From Rhodopseudomonas pseudopalustris (GTDB lineage Bacteria; Pseudomonadota; Alphaproteobacteria; Rhizobiales; Xanthobacteraceae), in the NCBI RefSeq assembly GCF_900110435.1, contig NZ_FODT01000017.1, forward strand, positions 1-64,000: a DNA stretch of 64,000 bases, read 5' to 3'. The translations under genes were made by a program, and so were the position numbers. The notes below the pieces were generated by a model that did not search any database, was not told the DNA's origin, and was given only the letters and a program-made list of their open reading frames with translations. How positions within the stretch are numbered: position 1 is the first letter of the stretch; every line of letters begins with the position of its first letter. Positions 39,895 to 56,316 of this stretch are shown one piece after another.

Positions 39895-39910
39895 GCTTCA
39901 GCGGCCGCAA

Positions 39911-40016
39911 GAGCTTTTCCGGTTCTGATCGAATCAGAACCGGAGCTCTGACTTTTTGTTCTGACGCGTTTTCTTGACGCGAACCGGTACCCACTTCGCT
40001 CGAAAACGCGATAGAA
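39911..40016. repeat. dispersed palindromic repeat, full copy
   Basis: A GGTTCTGATCGAATCAGAACCGGAGCTC-type palindrome is followed by TTTTTGTTCTGACGCGTTTTC, GCGAACCGGTACCCACTTCGCTCG and AAAACGCG. It lies after the RuBisCO-like gene. Other copies are at 47225-47330, 49885-49986, 51511-51613 and 55449-55512. Confidence 0.8.
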
Positions 40017-49995: not shown

Positions 49996-50877
49996 ATGCC
50001 GTTGTCCAAGAGCCTGATCGACCTGATTTCGATTCTCGATCTCGAACCGATCGAGGTGAACCTGTTCCGCGGCACCAGCCCGAAGACGAGCTGGCAGCGG
50101 GTGTTCGGCGGCCAGGTGATCGGCCAGGCGATGGTCGCCGGCTGCCGCACCGTCGAGAACCGGCTGCCGCATTCGATCCATTGCTATTTCATCTTGCCGG
50201 GCGACCCGCAGGTGCCGATCATCTATCAGGTGGAGCGGCTGCGCGACGGCAAGAGCTACTCCACCCGCAGGGTGACGGCGATCCAGCACGGCCAGGCGAT
50301 CTTCTCGGTGATGATGTCGTTCCACGACGACGAGGAGACCGCGTTCGACCACCAGGACAAGATGCCCGACGTGCCGCCGCCGGAGGCGCTGACCGCGGAG
50401 GAGATTTCCAAGCAGCCGTTCTTCAAGGAGATGCCGGACTTCATCAAGCGCTACTACGAAGCCGATCGGCCGATCGAGCTACGTCCGGTCGAGCTGTCGC
50501 GCTATTTCGGCAAGAAGATCGAGGACGGCCGCATCCACGTCTGGATCCGCACCGCGGCCAAGCTTCCGGACGATCCGGCGCTGCATATGTGCGCGCTGGC
50601 CTACGCGTCCGACTTTTCGCTGCTCGACGCGGTGATGGCGCGCTACGGCCGCACCCTGTTCGACAAGCGGATGATGCCGGCGAGCCTCGACCATGCGATG
50701 TGGTTTCACCGCCCGTTCCGGGCCGACGAATGGCTGCTCTACGCGCAGGACAGCCCGTCCGCCCAAGGTGGCCGCGGCCTGACGAGGGGGCAGATCTTCA
50801 AGCCCGACGGTACCCTGGTCGCCTCCGTCGCCCAGGAAGGCTCGATCCGCCAGCGCCGCGACACGCCGAAGGATTGA
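49996..50877 (+). CDS. tesB: acyl-CoA thioesterase II
   Basis: 293 residues of the double-hotdog TesB fold. NLFRGTSPKTSWQRVFGGQVIGQAM is the N-terminal hotdog signature. The catalytic residues fit the family: Asp in YASDFSLLD, the Ser/Thr region SLDHAMWFHRPF, and Gln in VAQEGSIR. It hydrolyses medium- to long-chain acyl-CoA; the physiological need is unclear. The ATG at 49996 has AAGGAG 6 bases upstream. A hairpin follows the stop. Confidence 0.95.
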   Translation: MPLSKSLIDLISILDLEPIEVNLFRGTSPKTSWQRVFGGQVIGQAMVAGCRTVENRLPHSIHCYFILPGDPQVPIIYQVERLRDGKSYSTRRVTAIQHGQAIFSVMMSFHDDEETAFDHQDKMPDVPPPEALTAEEISKQPFFKEMPDFIKRYYEADRPIELRPVELSRYFGKKIEDGRIHVWIRTAAKLPDDPALHMCALAYASDFSLLDAVMARYGRTLFDKRMMPASLDHAMWFHRPFRADEWLLYAQDSPSAQGGRGLTRGQIFKPDGTLVASVAQEGSIRQRRDTPKD

Positions 50878-51008: not shown

Positions 51009-51491
<483 letters not shown>

Positions 51492-51510
51492 GCACATATC
51501 ACCGCAATCC

Positions 51511-51613
51511 TGGAGCGTTTCGAGCGAAGTGGGAACCGGTTCGCGTGAAGAAAACGCGTCAGAACAGAAAGTTAGAGCTCCGGTTCTGATTCTATCAGAA
51601 CCGGAGCTCTAGC
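51511..51613. repeat. dispersed palindromic repeat, full copy
   Basis: Reverse orientation: GAGCGTTTCGAGCGAAGTGG, GAACCGGTTCGCGTGAAG, AAAACGCGTCAGAAC, then the palindrome GAGCTCCGGTTCTGATT / CTATCAGAACCGGAGCTC. It lies between glnK and the broken amtB. Confidence 0.8.
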
Positions 51614-51652
51614 GGCGGTGCCGGGGCGCCGCGACACGACGGGGCAGGCCTC

Positions 51653-51808
51653 ATGATCCGGGCGACACGCCCCTCGGCACCGGTCGCGCCTGGCTTCATC
51701 CTTCCGGCGCTCGGCGCGAGCGCGAGCGCTTGTTGGCCCCCGCCCTGGCGCAGGACGGGCCGGCGCCCGCCATCAGCGCCGCCGACACCGCCTGGATGAT
51801 GGCCACTA
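51653..51808 (+). pseudogene. amtB: 5' stub of a broken amtB (ammonium transporter)
   Basis: The ATG at 51653 begins a signal-peptide-like stretch (GFILPALGASASA). After an apparent one-base frame change near 51725 the frame continues LLAPALAQD...ISAADTAWMMATTA. That end matches the start of mature AmtB; the intact copy at 53835 has GDNAWMMTST at the same place. Similarity stops near 51808, where AT-richer foreign sequence begins. Position directly after glnK supports the identity. The rest of the gene is missing except for the 3' stub at 52986-53133. Confidence 0.75.
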
Positions 51809-51882
51809 CCGCAAGTTTAGCCTTGCAGACTTGCCGCCTTCTAAGCGACAACTGCGGCCCTAAATTGCGGGGAGGCAATCCG

Positions 51883-52710
51883 TTGGAAGCGCAAAAAATC
51901 AGCGAGATGCTGGAAATCAACAAGGACCAGAAGAACTACTACGAGGTAGCATCTGGCGGCTCCACCCACGAGGTTAACAGCGCCGCAACAAATACATGGC
52001 GGCGTCTCAGAAGCAGAGTTCTGGGCGTGTTCGATGGAACGGCTGTCGCCAAATCCATTGATGACTTGCACCGCCAGTGGATGGGCGACCTAAGCGGCAA
52101 GAAGGTTCTGGAACTGGGCGTGGGTAACGGGAGTCCTTTTTCGAGAGAGATGGCCCACAGCGCGCGAGAATACGTTGCTATTGACCTCAGTCAGTCCCGC
52201 ATTGACGAGCTGCGCAAGAAGGTAGGGACCGCTGAAAACGTCAAGCTCTACGCGACGGACTTTCTTTCGGCAGAAGCGTTTCCCGAGGAAAAGTTCGACC
52301 TGATCTACGCTATGGCGGTGTTCCACCATTTCAAACACCTCGACGCCCTCCTTGACGTAGTGGAGCGGAAGCTCGCCCCCGGCGGGCAGGTGATCACCTA
52401 TGACCCGGTGAAGGTGTGGTGGGGCGCTCGACTACTCAGGGCCGCCTTTCGCCCCTTCCAGACCGATGCTGCCTGGGAGCACCCCTTCGCAGAGCAGTCC
52501 CTGGCAACCATCGAGAAGCGCTTCCGCGTTCTTCATTGCCAAGGAATTATGGGCAAGGCGAAATGGGCCTGCATTGCCGGCGCGATCTCTCCCGCGGCCG
52601 GCAGGCGGTTAGCCCAACAATGGCACGAGGATGATTTGCGCACCATGACGGCCACGCGCACTCTGCGCTCATGCCTGCAGGTGTCATATCACCTCCAGAA
52701 AATGCCCTAG
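51883..52710 (+). CDS. class I SAM-dependent methyltransferase on the inserted segment
   Basis: About 275 residues from a TTG at 51883, preferred because GGGGAGG lies 6 bases upstream; an ATG at 51907 is the alternative. In frame it runs back into the amtB stub, so a fusion product is conceivable. Motif I is [18 protein letters not shown], followed by [50 protein letters not shown] and [13 protein letters not shown]. This is a Methyltransf_11-type small-molecule or glycan methyltransferase. Base composition is visibly less GC-rich than the flanking genes, a sign of transfer. The substrate is unknown. Confidence 0.8.
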
Positions 52711-52754
52711 TGGCGCACCCGTTGAAGGCGCTCGGGTTGGCGGTCCTGTTTGTG

Positions 52755-52985
52755 CCGCTGTCGACTTCCGCCTTCTTGACCCAGTCATGCAGCGTCTGCG
52801 GCGTGCAGCCGATCTTGGCCGCGCTCGACGTCTCTGCCGCCCAGCGCGACGGATGCTCACTCGCGTGATCCAGCACCATCCGAACCGCGCGGGCCTGGAC
52901 CTCGCGTGAAAACTTGTTCGTCGTCTTGCTTGTCATGGCTCCATCCTCTCAGGAGTTGGAGCTCCGGCAAACCGGGGGCGGTTCA
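52755..52985 (-). mobile_element. truncated IS3-family element (left end and orfA N-terminus)
   Basis: Read on the minus strand, it starts with a terminal repeat TGAACCGCCCCCGGTTTG at 52985 and has GAGAGGATGGAGCC before an ATG at 52936. The product [22 protein letters not shown]...[23 protein letters not shown] is the OrfA helix-turn-helix of IS3-family transposases. Similarity ends near residue 62 (about 52755), so the rest of orfA, all of orfB and the right end are missing. The methyltransferase stop lies 45 bases beyond the break. Confidence 0.8.
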
Positions 52986-53133
52986 CGGCGATGCCGGCGG
53001 GGTGGATCAGCGGCCTTCAGGGACCGCCTATGTGCCGCTGAAACTGGTTGGTGTGTTCGTCGCGCTGCGCGTATTTCGCGAGCACAAGATCAAGAGTCTC
53101 GACATTTCGCAGCATGGCGAGGCGCTCCAATAG
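52986..53133 (+). pseudogene. amtB: 3' stub of the broken amtB
   Basis: The frame ending TAG at 53131-53133 encodes VPLKLVGVFVALRVFREHKIKSLDISQHGEALQ in pieces. It aligns with the end of the intact AmtB in this window: LYKVVDVIVGLR then EREGLDLVEHTERAYN. It begins directly at the outer end of the IS3 relic. Together with 51653-51808 this indicates one amtB gene whose middle was replaced by the methyltransferase and IS3 segment. Confidence 0.7.
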
Positions 53134-53455
53134 CCACCAACCTTATTATATTACCGAGCGCACGCCCGCCTCCTGAGCACGATTGTGTTCGCACCCTGTC
53201 GTGCTCGCTTTTTGATCTGACCTGCCCACGATTTGCCCATGTGTTGGGCGCGACCGAATAGCGCAGCCGGTGCTGCAGTGCGGTTTTCCGCGAAGGTTTC
53301 GATTTCCTGAACGATTTCAGCGCGCCACCCGACTGGCACGGCATTTGATTCTAAGGGGCGAGGCTGTGCCCGCGTAGTGATGCCCTCCGCGTGGGGATTT
53401 TCAGTCGAGATCAAGCCCAGCCAGTTTGGCCGGGCCCTTAGCGGGGATAAGACCC
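53134..53455. other. stretch between broken amtB and second glnK
   Basis: These 322 bases have no recognised gene. A minus-strand frame (53151-53414, 87 residues, WRAEIVQEIETFAENRTAAPAALF...) is open with a coding-like composition, but I cannot match it to a family and it lacks a clear ribosome site. The glnK2 promoter must lie in the right half. Confidence 0.35.
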
Positions 53456-53794
53456 ATGAAAATTGTTATGGCGATCATCAAGCCATTCAAACTCGAAGAA
53501 GTCCGTGACGCCCTGACTGCCATTGGCGTGCACGGTCTGACGGTGACGGAAGTCAAGGGATATGGCCGGCAGAAGGGCCACACGGAAATCTATCGTGGCG
53601 CCGAATACGCGGTGAGCTTCCTGCCCAAGATCAAGATCGAGGTCGCGATCGCGACCGATCAGGTCGAGAAGACCATCGAGGCGATCACCACCGCCGCCAA
53701 GACCGGCCAGATCGGCGACGGCAAGATCTTCGTCCTCGGCCTCGACCACGCGGTGCGCATCCGCACCGGCGAAGCCGACGCTGCGGCTCTCTGA
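53456..53794 (+). CDS. glnK: PII nitrogen-regulatory protein (second copy)
   Basis: A 112-residue PII protein. [17 protein letters not shown] contains Tyr51, and [28 protein letters not shown] is the C-terminal signature. The ATG at 53456 ([15 protein letters not shown]) is the family start; an upstream in-frame ATG would add ten unrelated residues. It lies 40 bases upstream of the intact amtB, the standard glnK-amtB operon. It should regulate AmtB by binding its cytoplasmic pore in response to 2-oxoglutarate and uridylylation. Confidence 0.96.
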   Translation: MKIVMAIIKPFKLEEVRDALTAIGVHGLTVTEVKGYGRQKGHTEIYRGAEYAVSFLPKIKIEVAIATDQVEKTIEAITTAAKTGQIGDGKIFVLGLDHAVRIRTGEADAAAL

Positions 53795-53834: not shown

Positions 53835-55277
53835 ATGACGTTCAAACGTCCCTACGGCGCGGGATTGGCCGTGCTCGCAGCCGGCCTGTTCGCCGCGACT
53901 GCCGCCTACGCCGAGCCCACCGTCAACAAGGGCGACAACGCCTGGATGATGACCTCGACGATTCTCGTCCTGCTGATGACCATCCCGGGCCTCGCGCTGT
54001 TCTACGGCGGTCTGGTTCGCTCCAAGAACATGCTCTCGGTGCTGGCGCAGGTGTTCTACACCGTCTGCGTCGGCAGCATCATCTGGGCGGTGTACGGCTA
54101 TAGCCTCGCCTTCACCGGCGGCTCGGATTTCATCGGTGGCTTCTCCAAGGCGTTCCTCGCCGGCATCACCCCCGATTCGAAGGCCGCCACGTTCTCGGTC
54201 GACGCCAACATCTCGGAGCTGATCTACGTCTGCTTCCAGATGACGTTCTGCACACTCACCCCGGCGCTGATCGTCGGCGCCTTCGCCGAGCGCACCCGCT
54301 TCGCCGCGGTGGCGCTGTTCATCCCGCTGTGGATCACCCTGATCTACCTGCCGATGGCGCATATGGTCTGGTACTGGGCCGGTCCGGACGCGATCAGTGA
54401 CGCCGTCAAGGCGCTCGCCGCTGCGACCGACGAAGCCACCAAGGCTGCGGCGCAGGCCAAGCTCGACGAGGTCAACGCCGACGCCGGCTTCCTGTTCAAG
54501 AAGGGCGCGCTCGACTTCGCAGGCGGCACCGTGGTGCACATCAACGCCGGCATCGCCGGCCTGGTCGGCGCCCTGCTGGTCGGCCGTCGCACCGGCTACG
54601 GCAAGGAGCTGATGGCTCCGCACTCGCTGACCATGACCATGATCGGCGCCTCGCTGCTGTGGGTCGGCTGGTTCGGCTTCAACGCCGGTTCGGCGCTCGA
54701 AGCTTCCGGCGGCGCCGGGCTCGCGATGGCCAACACCTTCGTCGCCACCGCGGCGGCGGCGCTGTCGTGGATGTTCGCGGAGTGGATCTTCAAGGGCCAC
54801 CCCTCGCTGCTCGGCGCGCTGTCCGGTGCGGTGGCGGGCCTGGTCGCGGTCACCCCCGCGGCGGGCTACTCCGGCCCGATGGGCGCGATCGTGCTCGGCC
54901 TGGTCGCCGGCGTGGTCTGCCTGTTCTTCTGCACCGTGATCAAGAACGCGCTGAAATATGACGACTCGCTCGACGTGTTCGGCGTCCACGCCGTCGGCGG
55001 CATCGTCGGCGCGCTCGGCACCGGCATCGTGGTGAACCCGGCGCTCGGCGGCACCGGCGTGTACGACTACACGCTGGGCAAGGTCGCCGAATATGACCTC
55101 GTCAACCAGATGATCTCGCAGAGCTGGGGGGTCGGCACCACGCTGCTGCTGTCCGGCATCGGCTCGGCGATCCTCTACAAGGTCGTCGACGTCATCGTCG
55201 GCCTGCGCGCCCCGGTCGAAGTCGAGCGCGAAGGCCTCGATCTCGTCGAGCACACCGAGCGCGCCTACAACATGTGA
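53835..55277 (+). CDS. amtB: ammonium transporter (intact copy)
   Basis: A 480-residue trimeric ammonium channel. The signal peptide (about 1-25) is followed by eleven helices. NAWMMTSTILVLLMTIPGLALFYGGLVRSKN in pieces is the family start. The conserved pore histidines are in GTVVHINAGIAGLVG and FGVHAVGGIVGALG. DFAGGTVVHI and GWFGFNAGSAL are Amt signatures. A periplasmic insertion of about 35 residues (KALAAATDEATKAAAQAKLDEVNADAGFL in pieces) lies before the fifth helix. It shares an operon with glnK2, and a terminator follows at 55367. Confidence 0.97.
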   Translation: MTFKRPYGAGLAVLAAGLFAATAAYAEPTVNKGDNAWMMTSTILVLLMTIPGLALFYGGLVRSKNMLSVLAQVFYTVCVGSIIWAVYGYSLAFTGGSDFIGGFSKAFLAGITPDSKAATFSVDANISELIYVCFQMTFCTLTPALIVGAFAERTRFAAVALFIPLWITLIYLPMAHMVWYWAGPDAISDAVKALAAATDEATKAAAQAKLDEVNADAGFLFKKGALDFAGGTVVHINAGIAGLVGALLVGRRTGYGKELMAPHSLTMTMIGASLLWVGWFGFNAGSALEASGGAGLAMANTFVATAAAALSWMFAEWIFKGHPSLLGALSGAVAGLVAVTPAAGYSGPMGAIVLGLVAGVVCLFFCTVIKNALKYDDSLDVFGVHAVGGIVGALGTGIVVNPALGGTGVYDYTLGKVAEYDLVNQMISQSWGVGTTLLLSGIGSAILYKVVDVIVGLRAPVEVEREGLDLVEHTERAYNM

Positions 55278-55288
55278 GCTCTCCCGAA

Positions 55289-55322
55289 GGGCGCGGCCTT
55301 TTCCTCCAGGGGGGCCGCGCCC
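55289..55322 (+). other. hairpin directly after amtB
   Basis: A 10-bp perfect stem GGGCGCGGCC / GGCCGCGCCC with a 14-base loop and no T-tract. It may protect the mRNA 3' end or assist the terminator that follows. Confidence 0.5.
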
Positions 55323-55366
55323 GGAACTACGGTCCGGGCAAATACCCCGGCAATGTCCGGACCGTC

Positions 55367-55405
55367 GAGGGGTCCCAGCGCAAGCTGGGGCCCCTGTCTT
55401 TTTGG
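55367..55405 (+). terminator. terminator of glnK-amtB
   Basis: A stem GGGGTCCCAGC / GCTGGGGCCCC with loop GCAA is followed by TGTCTTTTTGG. Confidence 0.8.
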
Positions 55406-55448: not shown

Positions 55449-55512
55449 CGAGAGCGTTTTCGAGCGAAGTGGATCGCTTCGGTTCTGATTGAATCAGTAC
55501 CAAAGCTCTAGC
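55449..55512. repeat. dispersed palindromic repeat, short copy
   Basis: GAGAGCGTTTTCGAGCGAAGTGG, then CTTCGGTTCTGATTGAATCAG and AAAGCTCTAG. It is the same family as 51511-51613 and overlaps the vapC stop. Confidence 0.7.
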
Positions 55513-55915
55513 CGCGATCGGGCGTGATCAAATCGACGTTTGGAAAGTAAGTGCGATAGTGCCGAGCATCGCGGGTCAACAGAGACAAATGCTCGGTCGC
55601 CGCATGCGCGCCGATCAGGAAATCGGAAAGCACGCGCGTCTTGACGCCGCCGCTCCGGCGATACTGAACAAAAGCTTTTCCGGCCAAGAATAACGCCGAG
55701 CGAGGGATCGGCGCGACCACAATGCCAATCGTTCGAAGCACGACCTCGAGCTGCTCCTCTTGATCGAAGCGCGTTGAAATTTCCGCATAGATCACGTCGT
55801 TGATGAGCAAGGGTCCGCGATCAATCGCCTCATTTATCCTCGCCGCCGACCAGCCCAGCCAGTTCGGATCCGCAGTCACAAGATCAATCAGAACGTTCGT
55901 GTCGACCAAGGTCAC
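55508..55915 (-). CDS. vapC: VapC-type PIN-domain toxin
   Basis: A 135-residue PIN endonuclease toxin. MTLVDTNVLIDLVTADPNW holds the first active-site Asp, NDVIYAEISTRF the conserved Glu, and VLSDFLIGAHAA with LLTRDARHYRTYF the remaining Asp residues. Targets of VapC toxins are usually tRNA or rRNA. The start is a GTG read from 55913-55915. It lies 4 bases after the antitoxin gene, so the two are translated together. Confidence 0.92.
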   Translation of the reverse strand: MTLVDTNVLIDLVTADPNWLGWSAARINEAIDRGPLLINDVIYAEISTRFDQEEQLEVVLRTIGIVVAPIPRSALFLAGKAFVQYRRSGGVKTRVLSDFLIGAHAATEHLSLLTRDARHYRTYFPNVDLITPDRG

Positions 55916-55919
55916 GGCG

Positions 55920-56156
55920 CTAATCGTCGCCGCGCAGTAGCTTCATCACCTCGTCGGTCGAAAGCCCTGGTCCGGCACTGCCGATCACCTTCTCCCAGTC
56001 GATTTGTCTGCGGCTCGGCTGACTAACCTTTTCCAGGACCACGGCCCCATCCGCCCCGCGCTTGAAGTCGACCTCTCCCCCAGGGCCAACGTCCAGGGTC
56101 TCGAGAATGTCCTTCGGAATCCTCACTCGGCCGTCGCTCGTGATCCTGCTCGCCAT
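55920..56156 (-). CDS. vapB: VapB-type AbrB-fold antitoxin
   Basis: 78 residues. The N-terminal swapped-hairpin DNA-binding domain is clear (SRITSDGRVRIPKDILETLDVGPGGEVDF in pieces). The C-terminal part (residues 48-78, QIDWEKVIGSAGPGLSTDEVMKLLRGDD in pieces) is the usual toxin-wrapping tail with a DEVMKLLRGD end typical of VapB. It probably represses its own operon. The ATG read from 56154-56156 is preferred over an upstream in-frame codon. Confidence 0.9.
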   Translation of the reverse strand: MASRITSDGRVRIPKDILETLDVGPGGEVDFKRGADGAVVLEKVSQPSRRQIDWEKVIGSAGPGLSTDEVMKLLRGDD

Positions 56157-56316
56157 GTCGACCTCCGCCTGTTCCCGAGGCGCTCTCATAATCTAGGCAC
56201 GCGCTGCCCGGGCGTCGATGGTTAATCGCGTCTTAACCTCGCCGTATCTATGGTGGCTGATCTGTTTGCACCCGCTCCGCATAGCGGCCGGGCGCCCTTA
56301 AAACTGGCGTTTTTGA

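Follow-up and report, generated by a model that had tools for sequence, protein, structure and literature searches.

Within the window, a stretch of 64,000 nucleotides from Rhodopseudomonas pseudopalustris, the ammonium transport locus retains the gene order tesB-glnK1-[amtB1]-glnK2-amtB2, with amtB1 as the damaged member. The tesB gene (49996-50877) lies upstream of glnK1 (51153..51491, + strand), which encodes an intact P-II regulator of 112 residues (Pfam P-II, 8.8e-32). The GlnK1 T-loop is unchanged, and the protein shares 93.8-97.3% amino acid identity with its counterparts in the 13 of 15 relatives having glnK1 at the locus. Both glnK2 (53456..53794, +; Pfam P-II, 2.2e-30) and amtB2 (53835..55277, +; Pfam Ammonium_transp, 5.8e-108) are also intact. 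Pairing of glnK with amtB is widespread in bacteria. In this genome a search for the Amt family yielded one PF00909 match (E<=1e-10), corresponding to amtB2, the sole Amt gene found. A -24/-12 site that we take to be sigma54-like (TGGCACGGCATTTGAT, 53334..53349, +) precedes glnK2 and occurs with the same letters in the spacers of seven relatives; it has been retained in the window.

Two remnants of a single amtB gene are located between glnK1 and glnK2, at 51653-51812 and 53027-53133, and both align to the amtB1 of relatives rather than to non-Amt proteins, as expected from the preliminary description of an amtB split into 5' and 3' stubs. The 5' remnant (51653..51812, +; alignment to nine relatives, and translations) comprises the leader region and the start of the transporter domain. 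It opens with an ATG at 51653, begins MIRATRPSAPVAPGFILPALG and meets a stop after 48 codons. The Amt-like continuation LAPALAQDGPAPAISAADTAWMMATT, with the typical Amt start ISAADTAWMM, is read in the frame of 51730 and not in that of the ATG at 51653, hence the frame change suggested for this stub is real. The 3' remnant (53027..53133, +; alignments and translation) consists of the last 35 codons and the stop, and translates as AYVPLKLVGVFVALRVFREHKIKSLDISQHGEALQ. It had previously been aligned with the C-terminus of the AmtB encoded at 53835: its identity as an Amt C-terminus stands, but its type does not, as it corresponds to the amtB1 of relatives (...ISQHGEALQ) while AmtB2 ends in ...HTERAYNM.

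The junctions are placed consistently by local alignment to the nine relatives. Homology on the 5' side ends at 51812 in five (G010, G014, G004, G006 and G002), while the remaining four place its end at 51802-51806; on the 3' side it restarts at 53024-53031 in eight and at 53046 in G014, and extends past the amtB1 stop up to the start of glnK2. Compared with G010, the closest of the relatives in gyrB (93% identity to the window genome), 1061 of the 1335 bp of amtB1 (79%) are missing, and a methyltransferase block and an IS3 end lie in their place, in agreement with the proposal that the central part of the gene had been deleted and replaced. The remnants are collinear with the intact orthologue found at the same place in 8/15 relatives. 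No reading frame can give an Amt protein, given the frame change and stop, the extent of the deletion and the lack of any PF00909 match between the two glnK genes (E<=1e-10). The amtB1 of the window is a dead gene, a deleted and frameshifted pseudogene.

The 942 bp that follow the 5' junction (51813-52754) show no homology to amtB1 and hold a methyltransferase gene. Alignments to relatives place the DNA immediately 5' of this gene (51813..51882, +) outside amtB1 homology. The gene itself (51883..52710, +; 275 codons from a proposed TTG start) appears intact and encodes a class I SAM-dependent methyltransferase, with Methyltransf_23 matched at 3.9e-15 (longer ORF) and the _23, _11, _25, _12 and _31 models all above the curated cut-off; it thus shares the domain that defines the class I enzymes of Pfam Methyltransf_11/23/25. 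Phosphoethanolamine-type N-methyltransferases are the best matches among solved structures (5.1e-13), a likeness confined to the SAM domain, and none of the listed NCBIfam models reaches its cut-off. Its GC content of 0.58 and GC3 of 0.71 fall below those of six other genes of the neighbourhood (0.61-0.69 and 0.80-0.93, respectively), which bears out the earlier remark that the methyltransferase lies in AT-richer DNA. A stretch of 44 bp outside the IS homology (52711..52754) separates its stop codon from the IS fragment.

The searches turned up no close relative of the methyltransferase. None was detected at E<=1e-20 in 390 other genomes of the family, including the 15 of the same genus, nor at E<=1e-25 in 397 other genomes of the phylum. 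Partial matches were seen in one of 336 other genomes of the class (E<=1e-12), where the match lies at the end of a contig and covers just residues 7-92, and in two of the 397 other genomes of the phylum (E<=1e-11), where it covers residues 65-217. Translated searches returned 23 plasmid and three phage records, whose identities all stay below 60% and whose coverage of the query falls short of 80% in every case, while a DNA-level search of plasmids gave no match. Pattern scans picked out 19 stretches in genome contigs and three in viral contigs, among which no relative of the methyltransferase was confirmed. Assignment as mad2, a component of the MADS defence system, was considered and rejected because the match spans only positions 285-401 of the 492 in the profile; none of the neighbouring genes identified is a defence gene of the MADS kind.

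A truncated end of an IS3-family element (52755..52985, - strand, 231 bp) follows, comprising the start of orfA and the terminal repeat TGAACCGCCCCC. The IS end is matched in 37 of 247 other genomes of the family (E<=1e-20), with DNA identities of 72-94% among the matches listed. Of the 58 matches listed, 41, among them the best five, terminate at 52985 or 52986, which fixes the IS3 boundary where the preliminary description had put it. Full-length copies, 1321 bp long with TGAACCGCCCCGG at both ends, were found as two pairs, each within one genome, and one of them (L144) carries HTH_Tnp_1 and rve domains. The remnant and the full-length copies have both terminal repeat and boundary in common. 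IS3-family elements (HTH_Tnp_1 orfA, rve orfB, approximately 1.3 kb) thus share their terminal repeat and orfA start with the window sequence, which differs in being reduced to 231 bp without a full transposase. As the window retains just the first part of orfA, with no Pfam match, we refer to 52755-52985 as a remnant. A second copy of this IS end was not found in the window's own genome. The remnant and the methyltransferase block represent two separate pieces of foreign DNA. The 41 bp between the IS end and the 3' stub (52986..53026) were also considered as an earlier piece of amtB1; the alignment is not convincingly above that of shuffled sequences, which scored as well in 10/200 cases against G010 and in 25-84/200 against eight other genomes.

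A dispersed palindromic repeat of 106 nt (51510..51615, +) is located between glnK1 and the 5' remnant of amtB1. It occurs at no fewer than 40 places in the genome, this copy counted, with a further copy in the window at 39904-40005 (-), and is present in at least nine of the 15 relatives among the matches listed. By eye it is absent from the glnK1-glnK2 spacers of the seven relatives inspected. Its predicted fold is highly stable (-61 kcal/mol, z -9.1), and an Rfam scan gave a single match far under the gathering score. We presume the repeat to be RIME-like, as both are short, palindromic and intergenic and exist in many copies; the name stands for Rhizobium-specific intergenic mosaic elements (PMC2573895). 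The repeat could have lowered amtB1 expression before the gene was broken.

To place these lesions in context, the locus was compared in 15 genomes of the same genus using tblastn with the window proteins, inspection of spacers and their translations, and a scan of each complete genome for Amt-family genes; the methods agree. In G013 the locus is split across two contigs, and in G014 tesB lies beyond the stretch taken. An intact amtB1 of the expected size is present between glnK1 and glnK2 in eight genomes (G004, G006, G007, G010, G012, G013, G014 and G015), which is the arrangement that the preliminary description had named as support for its reading. One genome, G002, holds an amtB1 pseudogene with internal deletions and frameshifts. 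In four (G005, G008, G009 and G011) glnK1 is followed by glnK2 with no amtB1 gene, and in two (G001 and G003; L036 and L037), which are the two smaller genomes of the genus at 4.1 Mb, neither glnK1 nor amtB1 is found at the locus. The objection that relatives might lack amtB at this position therefore applies to six of the 15, in part: G008, G009 and G011 still display the last tens of bases of amtB1 by eye in the alignment, while nothing recognisable as a remnant was seen in the G005 alignment. The pseudogene of G002 keeps inner parts of amtB1 that are absent from the window, and its gap in the region of the 3' stub does not occur in the window. As the lesions differ, the losses in G002 and the window are separate.

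The complete arrangement is not particular to the genus. In each of ten outgroup loci examined, from 80 recovered in a wider search, a glnK gene directly precedes amtB1, and in seven it is clearly of glnK1 type (86-90% identity). A glnK2-type gene follows amtB1 in seven of the ten, and amtB2 is present too in five, four of which provide the outgroup for the locus tree described below. The glnK1-amtB1-glnK2-amtB2 order is thus older than the genus. All 16 genomes have a nifH match above the family cut-off, so loss of amtB1 is not tied to loss of nitrogen fixation.

The number of losses was estimated from three trees. A tree of the locus itself (tesB, glnK2 and amtB2; 16 genomes and the four Bradyrhizobium outgroup loci L055, L058, L059 and L060) requires six changes of amtB1 state, five of these forced by well-supported branches, and places the window apart from G008 and G011 with weak support. 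Since a single exchange may carry several neighbouring genes, trees of unlinked genes were also built. The rpoB tree (15 genomes, G010 having no rpoB found and that of G013 being partial) unites the window, G008 and G011 with support of 100/100, and parsimony with regain allowed gives three changes. Combining rpoB and gyrB (16 genomes, leaving out a weaker gyrB-like match of G013) again groups the window with G008 and G011 (87/89), within a clade that holds the intact G010 (100/99). On this tree the genomes without a functional amtB1 fall in five separate places; parsimony counts four changes with regain allowed, and with regain barred there are five losses: in the window with G008 and G011, in G002, in G009, in G005, and in G001 with G003. 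Hence, without any regain the sampled genus must have lost amtB1 on five or more occasions, and three to six changes fit if regain is allowed. The window's loss may be common with that of G008 and G011, as these also lack amtB1 and group with the window in both the rpoB and the rpoB+gyrB tree. We found no report of natural amtB1 loss in Rhodopseudomonas among the titles and abstract openings of a largely open-access literature. Separately, G008 (L161) and G002 (L162), which are not sisters in the trees, have an rpoB match 48 bp longer than that of the 12 other genomes in which the match is full-length.

In contrast to amtB1, glnK1 is intact with the same T-loop in all 14 genomes having it at the locus, the window included. 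On the locus tree topology, excluding the outgroup branches and the genus stem, 13 nonsynonymous and 53 synonymous changes in glnK1 were counted on branches following amtB1 loss; where amtB1 is present, the figures are 17 and 78 (Fisher p 0.84, small numbers). These branch counts show no sign of relaxed selection on glnK1 following amtB1 loss, and glnK2, used as a control, behaves alike (3/41 vs 6/68, p 1.0). Pairwise dN/dS for glnK1 leans the opposite way, at 0.05-0.12 in the eight pairs of which at least one genome lacks amtB1, compared to 0 in the three intact pairs, values that derive from few changes.

Published work on R. palustris, in the excerpts available, describes amtB1 and amtB2 in operons with glnK1 and glnK2 (PMC12093980). 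The window matches these operons in gene order and in its intact glnK1, glnK2 and amtB2, and departs from them in having the stubs of a deleted, frameshifted pseudogene where they have an amtB1 gene. Excerpts from three papers describe GlnK1 as dominant in the presence of ammonium, as bound to NifA in an inactive complex and as a proposed inhibitor of AnfA, and glnK2 as induced under nitrogen fixation (PMC12093980, PMC5705916, PMC8777916); a NifA-GlnK1 complex is cited and an AnfA-GlnK1 complex proposed (PMC12093980). In a double amtB deletion strain, ammonium uptake persists and nitrogenase regulation is unaffected (cited in PMC12093980), and R. palustris without AmtB is described as growing on N2 like its parent while excreting more ammonium (PMC5705916). 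We infer that these properties would explain the repeated loss of amtB1. Passages on Rhodospirillum rubrum state that AmtB1 is needed there for ammonium switch-off of nitrogenase (PMC8777916), so its dispensability is not general. The glnK-amtB pairing is described as conserved across prokaryotes in the abstract of PMC3831643.

We consider it highly probable that amtB1 decayed as a dispensable gene, with foreign DNA filling the gap. The gene would already have been dispensable in the genus, as AmtB2 with GlnK2 presumably carries ammonium scavenging and the important work of GlnK1 would not need AmtB1. A frameshift, an IS insertion, a deletion and the entry of foreign DNA, in whatever order they may have hit amtB1, would therefore have been tolerated. 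The methyltransferase would most likely be a bystander, inserted where it did no harm, rather than a functional replacement, and glnK1 would be retained for AmtB1-independent roles such as the control of NifA and AnfA. It is also conceivable that the methyltransferase joined the glnK1 operon by recruitment and is co-expressed with this gene, the change being adaptive. Its intact reading frame, co-directional with glnK1, its match to class I SAM methyltransferases and an SD-like GGGGAGG seen by eye before the proposed TTG start would fit such a replacement, which we nevertheless regard as unlikely: the 106-nt repeat with its very stable predicted hairpin lies between the two genes, none of the 15 genomes of the genus has a relative of the methyltransferase at E<=1e-20, and searches of family, class and phylum genomes gave no relative close enough for a test of selection. 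The corollary, that the methyltransferase holds the operon position as a nitrogen-regulated gene while GlnK1 in this lineage acts purely in solution, without coupling to any cognate Amt, would be similarly improbable.

Insertion of an IS3-family element with the methyltransferase as cargo, deleting the middle of amtB1 in the same step, might account for the short distance of 44 bp between the two, and IS elements can promote adjacent deletions. Such a single event is nonetheless very unlikely. Full-length copies of this IS in two other genomes measure 1321 bp, and the copy inspected has transposase genes; the fragment in the window breaks off within orfA, so that IS and methyltransferase do not form one intact unit, and the methyltransferase is matched at E<=1e-20 in 0/390 other family genomes as opposed to the 37/247 with the IS end. 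An artefactual join of unrelated contigs could be invoked since the source genome is a draft assembly of 28 contigs, yet it appears extremely improbable: 51600-53450 matches the genome at this place only, each flank leads on to the genes expected there, the 5' stub bears a frameshift of its own and similar decay is seen in relatives.

Taken as a single locus, amtB1 is an ordinary case of a redundant gene that has decayed and contains foreign DNA. The repeated losses across the genus, the AmtB1 type of the stubs, the two foreign pieces and the 106-nt repeat are points beyond the preliminary description. What is of interest, albeit of modest wider reach, is that amtB1 disappears recurrently while the neighbouring glnK1 is conserved: a genus that repeatedly loses amtB1 yet keeps glnK1 offers a natural test of P-II function without the transporter, with relevance to the control that GlnK1 exerts over NifA and AnfA and to the leakage of ammonium from nitrogen-fixing organisms.

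Further features were observed downstream of the locus. The sRNA BjrC68 (RF02353, 99.4 bits) is located immediately 3' of amtB2 at 55321-55403 (+). Just beyond, at 55508-56189 (-), a PIN-domain gene and an adjacent MazE-like antitoxin gene constitute a VapBC-like toxin-antitoxin pair.
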